Positions 10,419 through 28,229 of a stretch of DNA of 64,000 bases are shown here, one piece after another. The notes beneath the pieces were generated by a model that saw only the letters and a program-made list of their open reading frames with translations, searched no databases and was not told the DNA's origin. Every line of letters starts with the position of its first letter. Within the stretch, counting starts at the first letter, position 1. The translations under genes were made by a program, and so were the position numbers. The DNA is from Syncephalis fuscata (taxonomy: Eukaryota > Zoopagomycota > Zoopagomycetes > Zoopagales > Piptocephalidaceae): contig JAHLTZ010000007.1 of NCBI GenBank assembly GCA_025786725.1, positions 310,001-374,000 of the forward strand, in the 5' to 3' direction.

Positions 10419-11622
10419 TTTTGTGCTGTGTATTACAACTAAAATTTTAAGCGCTTTAGAATATATATTAGAAATTTAAAATTTTAATAATTTACTTTGC
10501 CGTTACATTATGGCGCTATAATAAATTTAATGGCACTTTTGTTATAATTAACAAATATTTAATTGATTTAGAACGTTTTTTAGTCTGTTTGACTAATAAT
10601 TTTAATAAACATGATATAATAATTAAATTATTTATTTATTTAATACACTCATTTTTATTAAATAATAAATCAAAGTGCTTAATCAATCACAATTCTTATA
10701 ACTTATACCCGTTGCTTATATAACTGTATGATATCTTAAAATACGTATCAATTCAATTAATATTATTATATTTTATTATACATGTATTTACTGCTTATAA
10801 TGTGTGTTTAGCAAGTATTAGTACAACTACTGTTCGTGTCTAATTGTTATGCCCGCCTTATTTATACATTAGTCACTGTTTTTGACCTACTTCATTTCAT
10901 CGCTTTAAGTGTCAGTTTTGCTTACTACTTGCATTATACTGCTTTTGTTGAGTAGTTTGACTAAGTTGTTACACATTCTACTATTATTTAAATAATGATA
11001 TTGATCGTTGATTACGTTCACTTATACAGATAAAGTGGCTGTAACTAGTCTTATTAAATGCTGCTAGTTTAATTTAACTATACAAAGCTACTTTGTATGT
11101 TTTGCATGAACATTTTGAACACAAGTTATCACATGCCTAAACGCTGTAGATTTATATAGCATATTTATAATTTAAATGGCCAACATTGTCATGTTATTTG
11201 CTTTATTGATTTTATTGTCTAATTAAAGGCCAATGTTGGCACCACCATAAATTTATATTTAGAAAATAGCATACAAAGTTTTAGCAGATTACTAAATATA
11301 ATTGAAATAAAACTATTGTTTATTACTACATGTTTGCATAGCTGAATAAACACAGCTAAATGCAGTCTTGTTAGTAGTATAATAGTACTGTTGGCTAAAA
11401 GTTGAATAAACTAAAGCATTGAACGGAACTTGATATATGGATGAACTGAAAGGCATACTTGTCAAATGATCTTGTTTTATGCCAAATGGGCACTTAAGGT
11501 GTGCTGAACAATTAAACCGCTGCATTACCAATGCTAACATATTGGAGATGCAAGTTATTTATGCTCATAAACATATACAGCTCATGTCATATATCTAGTA
11601 TATCGGCCAGCGACGTATGATC
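10419..11622. other. AT-rich spacer; probable 3' UTR of the micro-exon gene
   Basis: No recognisable gene. A 75-codon minus-strand frame at 11313-11540 contains several Cys but lies beyond the stop of the micro-exon gene in a different frame, so it is treated as 3' UTR or chance. Confidence 0.4.
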
Positions 11623-12878
11623 TCAGTTATTACCTATTAATAAGTGTTATTGAACGTACAACAAATAGTATGTAATTAGTATACAGCTAATTAAAAGCAA
11701 CATTACTTACCGTCTATTAATAGCAATTAGTGAACACACAGCAAATAGTATGCAATTAGTACATAAACAATTAAAAACAACACCACTTACCGGCTATCAA
11801 TATACATTAGTGAACGAACAGCAAATAGTATGCAATCAGTGATAGTTAGCTGCTATGGTGTTTCACTTACGACCTATTCGTACAAGTTGTTAAAAATGCA
11901 TAGTATATAGTGTATGTTCAGCACATAATTAATAAATATGTAATTTCACTTACAACCTGTTATGATTAAATCATTGACAAACACAGTACATATAATGTGG
12001 TGAATATACAGACATCTAATATGCAACATTACTTACATCCTATTAATATTGAGTTATTAGTAACAGCGAATAGCATGAAATTAGCTCATAGCCGATTATT
12101 ATATAACGCCACTTACTAACTATTATATTCAATTATCAATCCATAAATACATAGCATATAAGTGATAAATAGCTAATTGACATGCAATATTACTTACACG
12201 CTATCAATATTAGGTTGTTAATACACAAATAAACACCATGTAATTAGCGTATTTTTAATCAGCATAAAACATTACTTACTAGCTATTCATGTTAAATTAT
12301 TGGCCCACACAATGTATAGCATGCAATTAGTGCGCGGTCAATCAATATATAGAATTACTTACGACCTGTTATATTGCATTGTCAATACACACAGTACATA
12401 GCGTGTAGTTAGAGTATAGGCAACCGATATACAATACCACTTACAAACTATTCATATAAAATTGTTGACATAAACAGTGCATAGCATGCAGTTAGCCCAT
12501 AGTCGCTTAATATACAGTATCACTTACTGCCTATTAATATTAAATTGTCGATACACATAATATGTAGTATTCAGTTAGCGTATATTCAACTAATATTCAG
12601 CACTGCTTACATTCTAATAATAGTAAATTGTTGGTAACGAATAGTATAAGATTTTTGCCCAATTATTTATTATACAGTGCTACTTACTGGCTATTATATT
12701 CAATCGTTGACAAAAAATCATTAGTTATTAATACACTGATAGGCATAATATTGATGCATATTTGTTGTAATTAAAACATACCAGTATTTACTTGAGCTGG
12801 CACGGCATCCACTGTGACTGTATTAGTCACAAAAACTACGAAAAAGACGCAAGCTGCAGTAATGGAAAGCTTCATCAT
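11623..12878 (-). CDS. Secreted Cys-rich mini-peptide encoded by thirteen 3-nt exons
   Basis: Exon 1 (12878-12782) encodes a classic signal peptide: a basic start, a hydrophobic core rich in Val and Phe, and a small-residue cleavage region near residue 25. It ends in phase 1 at a GTATGT donor. Then come thirteen 3-nt exons at 12688-12690, 12611-12613, 12528-12530, 12445-12447, 12363-12365, 12280-12282, 12198-12200, 12117-12119, 12037-12039, 11954-11956, 11871-11873, 11791-11793 and 11711-11713. Each is preceded by AG (almost always TAG) and followed by GTAAG. The terminal exon at 11633 reaches TGA at 11623-11625. The product is about 48 residues with Cys framework C-x-C-x4-C-C. The 14 introns are 74-91 nt, mostly 77-80, and resemble each other. 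Function unknown; a secreted effector or signal is inference. RNA evidence is needed to prove splicing. Confidence 0.65.
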
Positions 12879-13540: not shown

Positions 13541-15070
13541 ATGATGTCAAATTTGAAATGGAATCAAGTTGCAATGATAAGCAGCATCTTGGCACTAGTA
13601 TTTATTGTTCAGCCTATATTTGCTACACCGCGTAAAGCCAATTTACCCGAAGGTAGATTATTATACCAGATACTTTATGCGTCCATACTAATAGCATTGA
13701 TATATAGATGTATTTGAACCTGATCCACCGCAAGTATACGATGGTATTGATATACCCGCTGGATTTGAACAAGGTGAAGAGACATCATGGGAGCAACAAC
13801 TACAAGGCATGGATGTGAATGTCATGTGCCGCATACGAAACAATCTCAATGATAAATTTCGATTTCTTCAGGTATTTATTAAATATTGCCAATATTACAA
13901 CTAGCTAAGCAATTATAAATCTAGGACCTTAGCCGCAAACGAGTGCTATTACAAAATGATCCCGGACGCCAGTATGTTTTACACCCGCAACGCTCGTTCA
14001 CTTTTCGAGGCAAGCGCTGTTTTGTTATGCCTCGCTCAGTTGATGAAAATTTGAATGACTTTTATTTAAATTACATACCATCTTTGGCTGAAGCTAAATC
14101 GATTTTATCATTTTTCACTAAATTGATACAAGGTAGGCCTAGCCGATATGTTTGAGTATGCACAGTAGCTCATAATGAAATATGATTAGGTATTAATTAT
14201 ATCCACAAAGTTGGATGGACCAACATTAGTTTAAATGAGTTCAGTAAGAAAATGTCGCATTAACATTTAAGCCATTGCTAACTATAAATTATAGGCATTG
14301 TTGTTAGATCAAATCTCAGTAAATATCCTGTTATCAATGTAATGAAAATTGAACAGCTAAGACGCATCAAATTTAAAAACAATATTGTAGTACTGATAGC
14401 TGCACCTCAAATGAAACTATTATATCTTCCTGAATGGATCAAAAATACTAAAATCGATCCACGTAAGGCTGATCTATGGAGAATCGGCGAACTTTTTTAT
14501 GCTTTCCAATATGAATTCTACTTTAAGATGCCAAAAAAATCCACTAAGCAAATTTTAGAAGAAACTTTTTCCAAAATGCCAGACGTTAAGCCAGAACTCC
14601 ACGACACACAACAGCAGTTCAAAAGATTTATGCCATACTTCAAGAAACTTATTGAAGATAGCTATCAATCTGGATTAATAACAAAAAATAACGGTCGAGC
14701 TATTCTATTAAATACGAACAGCGGATTTCTAAAGAACAGCATTGATATATCGTTGTCGCCAATCAAGCAAATTTATTTAACGATAGAAATGCTAGACTTA
14801 TTCATTGCTGCGCAAAACTGTGTTTTTGGAAATAAGCCATTGCGAGGATACTCACAGTTTTTGCTTAATGGGCTCTTCCAACTAGGAATATATAGCATGC
14901 TTCCTGATATATATATAGCACATCCAAATGAATATACTCCCGTATTAGACATGCTAAATAGGCTGCTAACACTCAATCCCGAAGAGCGATTAACGCCGGA
15001 CCAATACTTGAGACAATTTGATAGAAATACAAATGCCAACCTTTTGCATGTATCTGATCAACAAAATTAA
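13541..15070 (+). CDS. Predicted secreted pseudokinase
   Basis: Five exons (13541-13652, 13708-13871, 13925-14132, 14190-14243, 14295-15070) join in frame to 437 residues. Residues 1 to about 29 are a signal peptide ending near PIFA. The rest follows a protein-kinase layout. GINYIHKVGWTNISLNEF (about 162-179, spanning the exon 3-4 junction) aligns with the catalytic-loop helix of kinases, but the HRD motif is replaced. No DFG is found. ADLWRIGELFYAF (about 237-249) matches subdomain IX. LLTLNPEERLTPDQYL (about 402-417) matches subdomain XI. Loss of HRD and DFG argues for a non-catalytic fold, perhaps binding a partner outside the cell. Two Met codons open the frame. No close family is recognised. 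Confidence 0.75.
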
Positions 15071-18238: not shown

Positions 18239-18904
18239 TTATGATCTGTGATAAATCAATGATTTTATCTCATCTTCGGATACATTATCAAAGTTTATTG
18301 GCTTCTTTTCAATGCTAATACGTTCGGATTTTACTGATTCATTTATTGAAGGTGAAGGTGATGTATTGTAGCGTGATTCTTTGTTAGCTTTCTTTAATAG
18401 CGATGTAGAAAATAGCTGGCTTCCATTGAAGCTTTTTGGTCTAACCTTAGCTAGTGTCTCCTTGTTTTTGGTAAAAAGATTCGAAACGCTGAGCTTTGTT
18501 TTAAGCGATGACGAACTCAAGCGTTTATGTTTCGGTGGCAGTGGTGGTAGCGGGCGATCCTTATTTTCAGCACTTGGTCCATGTAATATATTTTTCTTCA
18601 GCTCTTCAGTACCTCTATTTGACCAATGTTTGGGTGGTTTTGGTGGCGGTAAAACTTCGACTTTACTATTTAAATAGTGTTCATCACTAAGTGCTTGTAA
18701 TGGACGATTGTTATTGCTAAAACTCGGTTTATGCAATATAGGTTCATCTAGCTCTTTACTACTTCTATTTGACTGATGCCGCGGTGGTGGCGGGATTTCA
18801 AATTTACCGTTTACATAACGTTCATTATCAGCTGGTGCTGCCGCGATAAATGCCGTAAACGCAGCAAGATTACTTAGTATTATAGCAATAGCAAGCACAC
18901 GCAT
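18239..18904 (-). CDS. Predicted secreted proline-rich protein with SH3-ligand motif
   Basis: Single-exon, 221 residues. Residues 1 to about 25 form a signal peptide (hydrophobic core, cleavage near AAAPA). Two imperfect repeats of about 45-49 residues follow (about 28-72 and 75-122). They share a Y-x-N-x-K-x-E start, a PPP block, SNR, an EEL/KEL segment, an ILH-x-P motif and an RPL end. The second repeat ends in RPLPPLPPK (117-125), which fits both class I (RxxPxxP) and class II (PxxPxK) SH3 ligands. The C-terminal half is Ser/Lys-rich with no known domain. An extracellular protein displaying an optimised SH3 ligand would suit a host-directed effector; that is inference. No homologue recognised. 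Confidence 0.7.
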   Translation of the reverse strand: MRVLAIAIILSNLAAFTAFIAAAPADNERYVNGKFEIPPPPRHQSNRSSKELDEPILHKPSFSNNNRPLQALSDEHYLNSKVEVLPPPKPPKHWSNRGTEELKKNILHGPSAENKDRPLPPLPPKHKRLSSSSLKTKLSVSNLFTKNKETLAKVRPKSFNGSQLFSTSLLKKANKESRYNTSPSPSINESVKSERISIEKKPINFDNVSEDEIKSLIYHRS

Positions 18905-22508: not shown

Positions 22509-22626
22509 AACTACGTTCATTGCGCCTAGAAAGCACCGGATCCCGTCCGATCTCCGAAGTTAAGTTAGGCCGCGCTTCTGTAGTACTGCGGTGGGGGACC
22601 ACGCGGGAATGAGAAGTAATGTAGTT
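22509..22626 (+). rRNA. 5S ribosomal RNA
   Basis: About 118 nt. Terminal stem AACTAC/GTAGTT, the conserved segment CACCGGATCCCGTCCGATCT, the A-box-like GAAGTTAAGTTAGG, TAGTACTGCGG, and the box C region GGTGGGGGACCACGCGGGAA appear in the right order and spacing for a full-length 5S rRNA. No T-run follows before the tRNA that begins 8 nt later. Confidence 0.93.
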
Positions 22627-22634
22627 ACCGAATA

Positions 22635-22707
22635 GCCCGGTTAGCTCAATCGGTAGAGCGTGAGACTCTTAATCTCAAGGTTGCGGGTTCGACCCCCGCA
22701 TTGGGCT
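22635..22707 (+). tRNA. tRNA-Lys (CUU)
   Basis: A 73-nt cloverleaf with acceptor GCCCGGT/ATTGGGC (two G-U pairs), D arm TTAGCTCAATCGGTAGAGC, anticodon stem TGAGA/TCTCA around CTCTTAA giving CTT, and B box GGTTCGACCC. It begins 8 nt after the 5S rRNA gene. Confidence 0.95.
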
Positions 22708-23595: not shown

Positions 23596-23775
23596 ATTTG
23601 CGTTTGTCGCACCGTTATTTTTGCGTTTGTCGCACCGTTTATTTTGCGTTTGTCGCACCGTTATTTTTGCGTTTGTCGCACCGTTTATTTTTGCGTTTGT
23701 CGCACCGTTTATTTTGCGTTTGTCGCACCGTTATTTTGCGTTTGTCGCACCGTATATCGCGTTTGTCGCATTGTC
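23596..23775 (+). repeat. Eight-copy 21-24-bp minisatellite in the retrotransposon leader
   Basis: Eight copies of GCGTTTGTCGCACCGTT start at 23600, 23623, 23646, 23669, 23693, 23716, 23738 and 23759, separated by short T-rich links. They lie between the primer-binding site and the gag start, so in the 5' leader of the genomic RNA. The last copy has an altered end. Confidence 0.95.
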
Positions 23776-23886
23776 CTCTTTTCAATTTTATTTTATTTTT
23801 GCTTATCAGTGTTTGAAAATAAGCACCGCTGTTTTAAAATTACGATTCAGTATATAGTACACGTTGAGACCGATTTTATTCTCACC

Positions 23887-24729
23887 ATGAATTCCCGCTC
23901 ACCACTCACACACACCGAAAAGTTCACCGGTGATTCCAGTTTGCCTGTGGAACATTGGTGTAACATGGTAGAAGACGCATGGGAATTGGGTACATTTACA
24001 GACGAACAAAAACGTATAATGGCGTCCCAACAACTATCGGGACCAGCGGCAGTTTGGTATCAATCGATACGCGGCGGTAATACGCCATATAGCACGTGGG
24101 AACAACTAAGGGACGGAATTTTAGAACGTTTTGGTGGCAATCGATCAGCGGACATCGCGCGTTTGGAACTCACACGATTGCGCTGGACAGAAGATAAAGA
24201 CATTGAAGAACATATTACAAATTTCACAGCACTGCGTAGTCGAATTCCAGATGCCGCTGACATGGAATTGGTTACGGCATTTCGACTTACATTGCCGCCG
24301 GAATACTTGACCGATTCGATACATAATAAACCCACCAATATTAACGAAGCTTACGCTTCCACACGTGCTTTCTATTACTCAAGGAAACATGGATTACAAC
24401 ACTTAATACCACCACCAACTAAATCTAATAACGGCCCAACACCAATGGATTTAGATACTATAGTCCAAGCTTTAAATAGTTTAGGTTTTATTAATAATAG
24501 CAACAGCAGCAATTACAATAACCGTAAAAATTACAATAACGGGCCTAGATGTTACACATGTAACAAACGTGGCCATCTAGCCAGAAATTGTAATCGCAAT
24601 AACAACCGTAATTACAATAACCGCGATAACAACAATCAACAGCAATCTAACAGCTTAGATTTACAATCAACAAATGTCGACGTCCAAGCAAACAACAACG
24701 TAATTCAGGGAAACGACAACCGTCAGTAA
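23887..24729 (+). CDS. Retrotransposon Gag
   Basis: 280 residues from the ATG in ACCATGAATTC. A retrotransposon-gag core is visible ([41 protein letters not shown]). A zinc knuckle [14 protein letters not shown] (CX2CX4HX4C) near residues 221-234 is followed by an Asn/Gln-rich tail. The frame is open further upstream through the minisatellite, but the leader repeats make the 23887 ATG the sensible start. Confidence 0.9.
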
Positions 24730-24754
24730 TTAAGTGCGGCACACTTACTGACGG
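24708..24754 (+). promoter_or_regulatory. Programmed -1 frameshift signal at the gag-pol junction
   Basis: Slippery heptamer GGGAAAC at 24708-24714 is phased G GGA AAC in the gag frame, as -1 slippage requires. After a 5-nt spacer, a perfect 10-bp stem forms between CCGTCAGTAA (24720-24729) and TTACTGACGG (24745-24754) with a 15-nt loop. The gag stop lies inside the first strand. Slipping one base back enters the pol frame, which is open from 24612. Confidence 0.85.
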
Positions 24755-27700
24755 CCAGGTTGCCGCTAATACTCCGATACCACCCGGATTTGAGCAGTCT
24801 ACACTCATTCAAGGTCGCGCTAGCTCCGGTTTAATTACAGTAGCACCCAAAATCAATGGTGTTCCAGCCCATGTATTAATCGATTCTGGTGCATCCACCA
24901 ACTTTATGGATATTGAATTTGCCAAGAGGGCTCAAGTACATGTTACGAAACAAGCAAATTCAGCCAATGTAAAGTTGGGAAATGGTATGGAGTGCGGTGT
25001 ATCTGGTACTGCTAATAAAGTGCCTATTATTTTCAATTATCTGAAAGAACAAATTGATTTTACTATTATGAAATTGGGCAACTATAATGCAGTGCTGGGT
25101 ATGCCATGGCTAAGAAAACATGAAGCGCAAGTAGATTGGAAGACCGGTGTTATTAATTCTAATTGTAATTCAGCACCCAAAAGTACATTAGAAATTACCG
25201 ACAAAATTCAGCCTTCATTCATGTCAATAGAAGAAGTCGAGCAAACAGAAGCCAATGATATGATTTTATTAGCGATGATAAAAGAAAACAAAGAAAAAAA
25301 TGATACATCGTTAAATGGCCGTTACGCGCGATTGTTGGGTGAATTTGCCGATGTTGGACCAGAAGAATTACCACCTGGTTTACCACCAAAAAGAGACATT
25401 GATATACGTATCAATTTGGTGCCACATCAGCAGCCACCATTTCGGCCTACATACCATCTGGCAAAGAAAGAGTTAGACGAGTTGAAGAAACAGATCGATG
25501 ATTTGTTAGAAAAAGGCTTTATTAGGCCTAGTACATCACCATTTGGTGCACCTGTACTATTTGTGCGGAAGAAAGGAGGTGATTTACGTATGTGTGTGGA
25601 TTACAGAATGTTAAACGCACAAACAATTCGTGATCGTTATGCGTTGCCACTGATCGATGAATTATTCGATCAGTTACATGGGGCGAAAGTATTCTCAAAA
25701 ATAGATTTGAGAAGTGGATATCATCAAATAAGAGTAAATGAGGATGATATTCACAAAACAGCGTTTAGAACGCGCTATGGGCATTATGAGTGGACGGTGA
25801 TGGGATTTGGATTGACTAATGCACCGTCAGTATTTATGCGATTAATGCATAATGTATTTCATAAATTACTAGACAAGTGTGTAGTGGTATTTTTGGATGA
25901 TATTTTAATATTTAGTAAAAATCATACCGAACATGAGTGGCACTTACGGCAAGTGTTACAATTACTAAGAGAAAACAAATTATATGCCAAATTAAGCAAA
26001 TGTGAATTTGGTAAAGATGAGGTGGAATTTTTGGGACATATTGTTAGTGGCGATGGTATAAGACCACTACACGATAAAGTAATGGCTATTGCAAATTGGC
26101 CTATACCAAACAATCTGAAAGAACTGCGCTCTTTCCTCGGATTAACTGGCTATTATAGACGGTTTATTCGTGGATATGCTGATACTGCACGGCATTTAAG
26201 TCAATTGACTAAGAATGATGAGCCATTCACATGGGGAGATAATCAAAATACAGCATTTGACACACTACGTAATGCGATAGTTACAGCACCGGTATTGGCT
26301 ATACCAAATGTTAATGCACCATTTATCGTTACTACAGATGCATCTGATTATGCAATTGGTGCAGTATTATCACAAATAACCGATAATAATGAACATCCTG
26401 TTGCATTTATGTCACGTATATTACAGGCAGCCGAAAAGAATTATGCTACATACGATAAAGAAATGTTAGCTATTCTAGAAGCTACTAAGTTATGGCGCCC
26501 ATATCTTAGTTATGGCCATTTCGTAATATATACTGACCATGCACCGCTTACGCGCCTGTTTAAGCAAAAGGAAATGTCATCACGCCAAACGCGTTGGATT
26601 GAGCAGTTGCATCAATATGATTTTGATATCATATATAAGCCAGGCCGTGCTAATGTTGTAGCCGATGCATTATCACGACGTACATCGCCTAGTTATAACG
26701 CTATAAATGCTACAAATCTCTCTTTATTCCAACAGCGTGTTTTAGCTGGTTACGATCATGATGAACACTTTACAGGTGTAAAGAATGTTCTTATGGGAGG
26801 AAGGGCTGCAGGCAATGCTGCGGCAGTTAAAATTTCGCGACATTTTCGGCTTGATGATCATGGATTAATGTACGAGTTAAAAGACATTGAACCACGATTA
26901 TGCATACCAAATTACGATAATCTATATTTGGATATACTTAATGATCATCACGATGCAGCTGCTCACTTCGGCGAAGAAAAGACTATTGCAGCCATTAAGC
27001 GTAAATATTATTGGCCTGGATTGTCCAACATGACAAAGCGTTATATTAGGTCATGTGAAGTGTGCCAACGCACTAAACACTCCCAGCAGTTACCTGGTGG
27101 ACTATTACAACCACTTCAAATTCCGGAAGGACGTTGGCGCGATATTGCAATGGATTTTATAGTGCAATTGCCACGTACTAGTAGTGGTTATGATGCTATT
27201 TTTGTTGTAATCGACCGCTTTACTAAGCGCGCTCACTTCGTACCGATGAAGACGACAGCTACGGCTGTTGACGTTGCACAATTGTTCATGCAGAACATTG
27301 TACGTCTTCATGGCATGCCCCGCTCTATTGTATGCGACCGTGACGCCAAGTTTACCAGTAAATTTTGGCAAGAACTACATAAAATACTTAACGTACGTAT
27401 ATTTATGTCAACAGCATTTCATCCCGAAACAGATGGCCAAACAGAACGCGTAAACCGCACGCTAGAACAATTATTACGTACATGCGTTAACTATCAGCAA
27501 AATGACTGGGATCAACATTTAGCATTAGTTGAATTTGCGTACAATAATGCTAAGCAGTCATCAACTGGTAAATCGCCATTCTATACTGATTTGGGTAGCC
27601 ACCCCTACATGCCAGACGATTTAGTACGACAACACAACTTCGGCAACAAAACTAACGTGCAAAGTACTGCTGCATTCCTGCAAAAGATGAATGACATTTA

Positions 27701-28229
27701 TTTAGAAACACGCGAAGCGTTAAAGAAAGCACAAGAACGACAAAAACAATATGCAGATCAGAAACGAAGAGAAGTAGAATTTAAAGTTGACGATATGGTG
27801 CTGTTATCAACAAAGAATTTGACACCAGAAGCGGAACGTGAACGACCAAAACGTAAATTGGCTCATCAATTTACGGGACCATTTAAGGTCATTCAACGGG
27901 TATCGACTGTAGCGTACAAACTACAATTAGCACCTAACATGAAAATGCACAATGTGTTCCATGTTAGTCTGCTAAAGAAGTACGAAGAAAACCCGCCAGA
28001 GTTTATAGATCGTTACCCGCCACCGCCACCACCGGAAATAATAGATGGCAACGAAGAATACGAAGTAGAAAGCATATTAGCTAAACGGGTCAAACGCAAC
28101 AAAATAGAATATCTCGTTAAATGGAAAGGCTATGCGGAACATGATGCAACCTGGCAATCGTTACGTGACTTAGACAACGCATCAATACTAGTACAAGAGT
28201 ATGAAAAGCAACACCAGAGTCGGCGTTAA
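24714..28229 (+). CDS. Retrotransposon Pol (protease, RT, RNase H, integrase, chromodomain)
   Basis: The pol frame is read after -1 slippage; its first ATG (24906) is inside the protease and is not the start. Domains in order: aspartic protease (IDSGAS, about 24880), reverse transcriptase ([15 protein letters not shown], then FLDD at about 25890), RNase H ([28 protein letters not shown]), integrase with HHCC zinc finger (about 26944-27075) and DDE core ([31 protein letters not shown]), and a C-terminal chromodomain ([10 protein letters not shown] to YLVKWKGY, about 28057-28205). The chromodomain places it in the chromovirus clade, whose insertion is guided by histone marks. No internal stop was found. 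Confidence 0.95.

Follow-up and report, generated by a model that had tools for sequence, protein, structure and literature searches.

A large peptide gene family of Syncephalis fuscata, probably encoded one codon per exon

The array locus and its neighbours

The window, that is, the whole stretch of DNA analysed here, comprises 64,000 nt of the forward strand of contig JAHLTZ010000007.1 (positions 310,001-374,000) from Syncephalis fuscata, a zoopagomycete in the mycoparasite genus Syncephalis (PMC10386755). A survey of SRA RNA-seq data from 2020 lists the species among virus hosts (PMC7482067). On its minus strand, the motif AG-NNN-GTAAG recurs thirteen times in register between a leader exon and a short terminal exon (Table 1), an arrangement that had been proposed in a first-pass annotation of the sequence. 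All thirteen sites were recovered, at spacings of 77-83 bp, together with the predicted phase-1 end of a signal-peptide-like exon and a stop two codons into the terminal exon; the annotated site pattern holds throughout, except that one donor reads GTAAGC and two acceptors read CAG. Joined in the order of Table 1, the triplets would yield the spliced nucleotide string AATACTGCCAAATGCATTTGTCCTACGTTTAGATGTTGTCCCGACGGTAATAACTGA and the product MKLSITAACVFFVVFVTNTVTVDAVPAQVNT-AKCICPTFRCCPDGNN, the core of which has the four-cysteine pattern C-x-C-x4-C-C, as had been anticipated. A second in-frame ATG lies immediately 5' of the leader exon (12876-12878), and contig C264 carries a second copy of the gene in which all 13 triplets are identical.

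The bare count of motif matches in the window, 15 on both strands with 13 of them in the minus-strand array (11706-12692), is only mildly unusual (shuffle mean 6.4; at least 15 in 1 of 100 shuffles). It is the register of the sites that sets the array apart from chance, the probability of twelve further in-register sites being about 1e-38 by a rough estimate from site density. Tandem Repeats Finder (TRF) calls an 80-bp repeat that covers the array incompletely, the introns of this gene having diverged (median 26% between units).

Table 1. Predicted architecture of the array gene in the window (positions are those of the window).
Feature	Position	Strand	Remarks
Leader exon	12782..12875	-	94 nt, ends in phase 1; signal-peptide-like, with short pro-stretch, MKLSITAACVFFVVFVTNTVTVDAVPAQVNT
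First intron	12691..12781	-	91 nt, GTATGT...TAG
3-nt exon 1, CCA	12688..12690	-	motif match
3-nt exon 2, AAT	12611..12613	-	motif match; donor GTAAGC
3-nt exon 3, GCA	12528..12530	-	motif match
3-nt exon 4, TTT	12445..12447	-	motif match
3-nt exon 5, GTC	12363..12365	-	motif match; CAG acceptor
3-nt exon 6, CTA	12280..12282	-	motif match
3-nt exon 7, CGT	12198..12200	-	motif match
3-nt exon 8, TTA	12117..12119	-	sole exon of the 13 whose single skipping gives a stop
3-nt exon 9, GAT	12037..12039	-	motif match
3-nt exon 10, GTT	11954..11956	-	motif match; CAG acceptor
3-nt exon 11, GTC	11871..11873	-	motif match
3-nt exon 12, CCG	11791..11793	-	motif match
3-nt exon 13, ACG	11711..11713	-	motif match
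Terminal coding exon, GTAATAACTGA	11623..11633	-	end of split codon, Asn, Asn, stop
3' flank / possible 3'UTR	11316..11622	-	lower limit chosen by eye near an AATAAA-like motif

Several other features accompany the array in the window. A Ty3/gypsy-type retrotransposon with reverse transcriptase, RNase H, integrase and chromodomain occupies 23644-28229; the ORF that precedes it is gag-like by eye, and its listed start falls inside a 23-bp tandem repeat (23597-23770). A 5S rRNA gene and, immediately after it in the same orientation, a tRNA gene lie at 22509-22707. The minus-strand ORF at 18239-18904 (221 aa), with a signal-peptide-like start, a proline-rich body and no Pfam match at E 0.001, possibly encodes another secreted protein. 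A kinase-like gene is located at 13574-15067 (Pkinase below its cut-off), and the corresponding ORF (14342-15070) is 98% identical to P0002 and 97% identical to P0003, both from S. fuscata, so that neither is the window's own copy; P0002 and P0003 differ in their N-terminal parts, and the three would appear to form a small gene family or a set of alleles.

Arrays across the genome

Arrays of this kind are widespread in the 28.95-Mb assembly, as the genome-wide scan suggested by the first-pass annotation made evident. The pattern TAG-NNN-GTAAGT-N(55-80)-TAG-NNN-GTAAG matched 2,760 adjacent pairs of sites about 80 bp apart, against 0 matches for the reversed pattern over the whole assembly, and among the lengths scanned for the second exon (3, 4 and 6 nt), 4 nt gave 0 matches, 6 nt gave 62 and 3 nt gave the 2,760. 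A chance origin of the arrays was rejected on the strength of these controls and of the register of the sites. A search of the genome with the window leader returned all 90 candidates as matches (E cut-off 1; weakest match 0.055), of which 40 loci were fetched. Twenty-nine, allelic copies included, were modelled as array genes, six (L022, L023, L027, L030, L031 and L032) are uninterrupted ORFs, and five (L011, L025, L026, L034 and L047) were assigned to neither class. Strict chains of at least three units occur in 29 of the 40 loci, one of them, at L027, being a neighbouring array; the 29 models comprise the 28 remaining strict-chain loci and L036. Extrapolation to the whole assembly from the 363 strict pairs that the modelled loci contain (372 across all 40), a base that includes allelic copies and was picked by leader similarity, gives, very roughly, 5,300 three-nucleotide exons in 220 genes.

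The 735 internal exons of the modelled genes, with lengths restricted in the models to multiples of three, consist of 698 of 3 nt, 19 of 6 nt, 13 of 15 nt, 4 of 9 nt and 1 of 12 nt; a scorer admitting other lengths placed 5 two-nucleotide exons among 693, and the raw spectrum of motif distances has 398 distances of 3 nt and 20 of another length (2, 6, 15, 16, 20, 28 and 30). The longest strict chain has 38 units and the longest modelled run of 3-nt exons has 65, next to which the run of thirteen highlighted by the first-pass annotation is modest. All 29 modelled leader exons end in phase 1, and 23 of them end with Arg-Arg, unlike the window leader, which has no RR at its end; by eye, the leaders are signal-peptide-like. 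Among modelled donors, 628 are GTAAG and the remainder are weaker. The 385 array introns in strict chains (spacing 55-100, GTAAG required) measure 59-86 nt with a mode of 78, their donors continuing as GTAAGT(G/A)(A/G)(C/T)AT T and their acceptors being TTAATAG-like. Four models (L013, L028, L029 and L041) are weak at their ends, finishing in long terminal exons.

The predicted mature peptides are varied. Those of L016, L024, L037, L042, L046 and the window gene are Cys-rich, which makes the Cys-rich character noted for the window gene merely one subtype; those of L040 and L048 are Pro-rich, L043 has Gln/Ser-rich stretches, and 13 of the 29 lack Cys altogether. The rows of alignment A1 were chosen by Cys pattern, and some were shortened. 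A Pfam search with 10 proteins found nothing above the curated cut-offs, its weak matches falling mostly on the coiled-coil-like L013 product, and a profile search of the PDB gave 0 matches. Near the start of the modelled arrays of L014, L015, L019, L033 and L036, a 15-nt exon encodes part of a PLAKR-like motif that resembles the uninterrupted APLAKR/EPLAKR of L031 and L027 and suggests a second basic processing site.

Reading frame and uninterrupted paralogues

If the triplets are spliced together in phase 1, a T-ending triplet must not precede one that begins with AA, AG or GA. Given that the gene models bar in-frame stops by construction, only model-free counts, taken from one genome and there in part, bear on coding. 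Genome-wide, AA or AG follows 5 of 771 T-ending first triplets (106 expected) and 374 of 1,989 with other endings (Fisher p = 2e-50, an optimistic value because near-duplicate copies are counted); GA follows T-ending triplets 0 times genome-wide, and in the sampled loci the counts are 13 of 354 after endings other than T and 0 of 75 after T. With near-duplicates dropped from the sampled loci (L010, L018, L028, L029, L033, L041 and L044; as L028 and L029 are copies of each other, both members of that pair are absent), stops occur at 0 of 394 adjacent phase-1 joins, compared with a mean of 11.7 in within-array shuffles, none of 2,000 of which fell as low. Reverse-order joins, by comparison, create 13 stops in 394, and phase-2 joins create them at chance (42 of 429 vs 41.3 expected). 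Phase-0 stop triplets (TAA, TAG and TGA) are likewise absent (0 of 429, 6.8 expected), so the stop test alone leaves phase 0 possible; this absence is explained in part by the rarity of NTA codons in the uninterrupted paralogues (3 of 200). It is the adjacency effect, together with the leader phase in 29 of 29 models and the homology described below, that assigns the joins to phase 1. The stop avoidance reaches across about 80 bp and depends on which triplets are neighbours, on their direction and on phase, as would be expected if every triplet were spliced in and translated.

Two compositional features of the triplets were also recorded (L001, L009-L048): 1 of 479 begins with TA, where 12.8 are expected, and 8 of 479 end in AG, where 16.6 are expected. 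The scarcity of AG endings may reflect avoidance of a competing acceptor.

Triplets might alternatively be skipped at will to generate many peptide variants, as has been discussed for the micro-exon genes (MEGs) of schistosomes. Exons of 3n nucleotides can indeed be skipped in frame, and the window gene stays open after 12 of 13 single skips, but stops are not avoided at skip-one joins (15 of 309; shuffle mean 9.7) or skip-two joins (7 of 256; 8.2). As stops are tolerated at skip joins, selection acts on full inclusion, and combinatorial skipping as the selected mode, unsupported by these counts, was set aside as unlikely; occasional skipping of triplets alongside full inclusion is possible.

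The same counts weigh on two further readings. Recursive-splicing (ratchet) points show juxtaposed acceptor and donor sites, which the 3-nt sites resemble, and such points could serve to remove one long intron, the triplets being absent from the mRNA; no frame constraint would then be expected. The avoidance of stops at adjacent phase-1 joins and the similarity of two spliced peptides to uninterrupted paralogues make this explanation highly improbable. It is just as hard to credit that the arrays are non-coding tandem repeats that mimic splice sites downstream of a short or dead leader gene. In its favour, similar units stand in tandem, TRF calls part of the window array as an 80-bp repeat, and the two public gene models on sampled array loci depart from the triplets. 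Non-coding tandem repeats should, however, carry no frame constraint across units, whereas here in-phase stops are avoided solely at adjacent joins, 3- and 6-nt exons occur while 4-nt exons do not, and spliced products match uninterrupted ORFs. The first-pass annotation had held that genome-wide arrays arising as non-transcribed repeats would refute it; the arrays are genome-wide and yet behave as coding.

A look-alike pattern in other organisms gives the opposite picture. The three-unit pattern was found in 0 viral stretches and in 40 stretches of prokaryote contigs, and where triplets were checked (8 of the 40) they are one or two fixed ones: GGA in six cyanobacterial loci, GGA and GTA in L050, and CGA in L074. 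The printed part of the L054 stretch looks like a CRISPR array. A CRISPR-like coincidence was considered for the S. fuscata arrays and rejected.

Uninterrupted paralogues provide an independent line of comparison. After a common leader, usually RR-ended, come either one-codon exons or, in L022, L023, L027 and L030-L032, a peptide in a single uninterrupted stretch. The 5' and 3' flanks of all six uninterrupted genes are each common to between 11 and 28 of the 29 array loci, upstream sharing reaching 612 aligned positions. From about 136 nt past the stop of the window gene, likeness to the post-stop region of L022 is apparent (71% over 165 nt for L022c_3 vs L009_3). By codon position, the two classes have a similar composition, with third-position T at 0.42 in 810 array codons and 0.47 in 200 uninterrupted ones.

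Genome searches were run with two of the 29 spliced products, selected for a Cys pattern like that of known uninterrupted members. For L037, modelled with 26 three-nucleotide and 2 six-nucleotide exons, the ten best matches are all uninterrupted ORFs, the best scoring 67.1 bits over residues 1-59 as against 48.0 bits, in the leader only, for its own locus. For L045, one uninterrupted ORF outscores its own locus (62.9 bits over residues 1-58 vs 49.8). The alignment of L037 with P0001, QDPAKCERCVERC/KNPAKCKECINEC, has a score reached in 0 of 400 shuffles; in pairwise shuffle tests the floor (0.0025) was reached in 3 of 145 comparisons, two via the motif in the 15-nt exon and the third being L037 vs P0001. 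With P0001 as the query, the genome yields at least 150 matches, that is, all that were scored of 313 candidates, many of them covering the mature peptide in a single open frame, many confined to about residues 1-33 with a frame of about 40 codons, and a few with internal stops.

Among public proteins, 14 relatives were found (E up to 1, short-word search), all from S. fuscata, and two of these proteins, P0004 and P0014, show 100% full-length identity to ORFs in L023 and L027. The public model at L037 (P0005) departs from the array after two residues and reads into the intron, and that at L045 (P0007) differs from the array model; as both models placed on sampled array loci miss the array, mis-annotation of array genes in the public genome is suggested.

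Working model, known relatives and origin

Taken together, stop avoidance, exon length, composition and homology support the proposal of the first-pass annotation that the triplets are exons of one codon each, spliced to encode a small peptide, and extend it: with a probability that we put at about 0.92, the window gene belongs to a large S. fuscata family whose secreted peptides are encoded one codon per exon. In this model, many 3-nt exons, set between similar introns of about 78 nt, would come after a leader exon of some 94 nt and before a short stop-bearing exon. Introns of 59-86 nt are so short that intron definition fits, and the spliceosome would remove each of them in this ordinary manner and join the triplets in phase 1, such that every residue of the mature peptide would straddle a splice junction. 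Processing of the Kex2 type at Arg-Arg is well established, and the Arg-Arg end of the leader suggests it here: in RR-ended members, the secreted peptide would be trimmed at RR by a Kex2-like protease. The products are probably small secreted peptides acting on host or rival fungi, judging from the life style of the genus.

The closest structural kin are the micro-exon genes of schistosomes and the bicycle genes of aphids. In schistosomes, 35 MEGs have been described, with 10-20 exons each, introns of 0.1-5 kb and exons that are mostly 15 bp and range over 6-81 bp in the text of the source and 3-81 bp in its abstract (PMC10526429). As in that description, the S. fuscata genes come from a parasite, have putatively secreted products and possess tiny exons, mostly multiples of three; they differ from the genes described there in that 3-nt exons account for 698 of the 735 modelled internal exons, with as many as 65 in succession, and in that the array introns lie near 78 nt and are mutually similar. 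Most internal exons of the arrays are tiny and divisible by 3, as in micro-exon genes generally, and the long introns and mostly 15-bp exons that mark schistosome MEGs are not seen in them. Aphid bicycle genes are described as putative effectors with small internal exons in one phase and about 17 exons on average, and a megacycle gene has more than 100 microexons (PMC9168663). The arrays likewise comprise many small internal exons in one phase in genes for putative effectors, and add single-codon exons, repeat-like introns and uninterrupted paralogues, which are absent from the bicycle-gene description, the comparison being one of descriptions. Bicycle proteins of aphids also carry a CYC motif. 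The arrays are filed here as an extreme variant of micro-exon genes, outside both the MEG and the bicycle families.

Exons of very small size are themselves familiar: 1-nt exons are reported from CYP621A of fungi and from APC11/VPS55 of plants, spliceosomes are shown to handle exons of 1-5 nt, and intronless copies of a microexon gene exist (PMC12940212, PMC8831610). In the cases reported there, such exons are single or two adjacent in ordinary genes; here, a run would encode the whole mature peptide. Within the open-access literature, with subscription papers and preprints outside the search, no description of runs of 3-nt exons was found among the matches listed.

How the arrays arose is a separate matter. 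Introner-like elements, many near-identical introns in one genome, are known in fungi (PMC4457414, PMC9860276), and Syncephalis is unnamed in the main text of PMC9860276. The similar introns seen here, at loci of the array family only, stand in tandem a codon apart. Introners, in contrast, spread among unrelated genes. Introner-like copies may nevertheless have invaded between the codons of an uninterrupted gene, as opposed to tandem duplication of an intron plus its codon, an account of origin that is compatible with one-codon exons but which we regard as doubtful. In its favour, triplets differ at 58, 35 and 63% of bases where introns differ by 3.6%, distant unit pairs differ at 70, 66 and 74% with near pairs close except at the middle base, and uninterrupted paralogues share flanks with array genes. 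Against it, the insertions would have had to fall at one codon after another, always in phase 1 and with no 4-nt exon produced, and units have been duplicated in blocks: L043 has a five-unit block duplication with a 400-bp period, and the three units CTC GTC CTG occur twice in L033 and once in L019. The observations in its favour are also explained if conversion has homogenised the introns.

Comparison of eight paralogue pairs gives triplet divergences of 22, 20 and 10% at codon positions 1, 2 and 3, against 5.8% in introns and 1.6% in the leader, an excess of triplets over introns that is due almost wholly to L019/L033, L040/L048 and L035/L044, in which misregister of repeat units could inflate divergence. 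The closest pairs (L009/L010, L017/L018, L028/L029 and L041/L042) have 0 triplet base differences with introns differing by 0.1-2.5%, which speaks for constraint rather than rapid change. In 7 of 22 arrays, a link between triplet identity and intron similarity reaches nominal p<0.05. Across intron positions 25-66, the within- to between-array ratio is 0.54-0.74, compared with 0.75-0.94 elsewhere; such homogenised centres are suggestive of conversion, the ends being constrained by splicing as well. Conversion with codon selection, diversifying selection and intron invasion are all possible, and the intron centres lean to conversion. Tentatively, and at somewhat less than even odds, the family may be viewed as a codon-cassette system, wherein residues are intron-flanked cassettes and introns serve as recombination tracts for the duplication, deletion and swapping of codons. 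The repeated introns would ease the duplication, loss and reshuffling of single codons, and with the frame unbroken and leader and splice signals fixed, a peptide arsenal could evolve codon by codon.

Should junction reads confirm the one-codon-exon reading, the family would constitute an extreme case of gene fragmentation, with, very roughly, thousands of one-codon exons and nearly every residue of its peptides straddling a splice junction. The lower limit of exon size would be put to the test, the fidelity of a fungal spliceosome over tens of consecutive 3-nt exons would become a question in its own right, and a natural system would be at hand in which intron homology may drive peptide diversification. 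The coexistence of fragmented and uninterrupted paralogues makes intron gain and loss directly testable.

Larger-scale variation was also encountered in some arrays. One array intron in each of L048 and L046 (474 and 488 nt) holds an insertion of about 400 bp with the tRNA-like box GGTTTGAACCCGGAGCC, apparently bordered by duplicated intron sequence; it is apparently a SINE-like element tolerated within an array gene. At C24:515226-516569, microexon units that are identical in the printed letters repeat every 626 bp, and at C19:6780-7815 such units repeat at 628 and 316 bp, which suggests that blocks of several codons are tandemly repeated and would encode repeat peptides.
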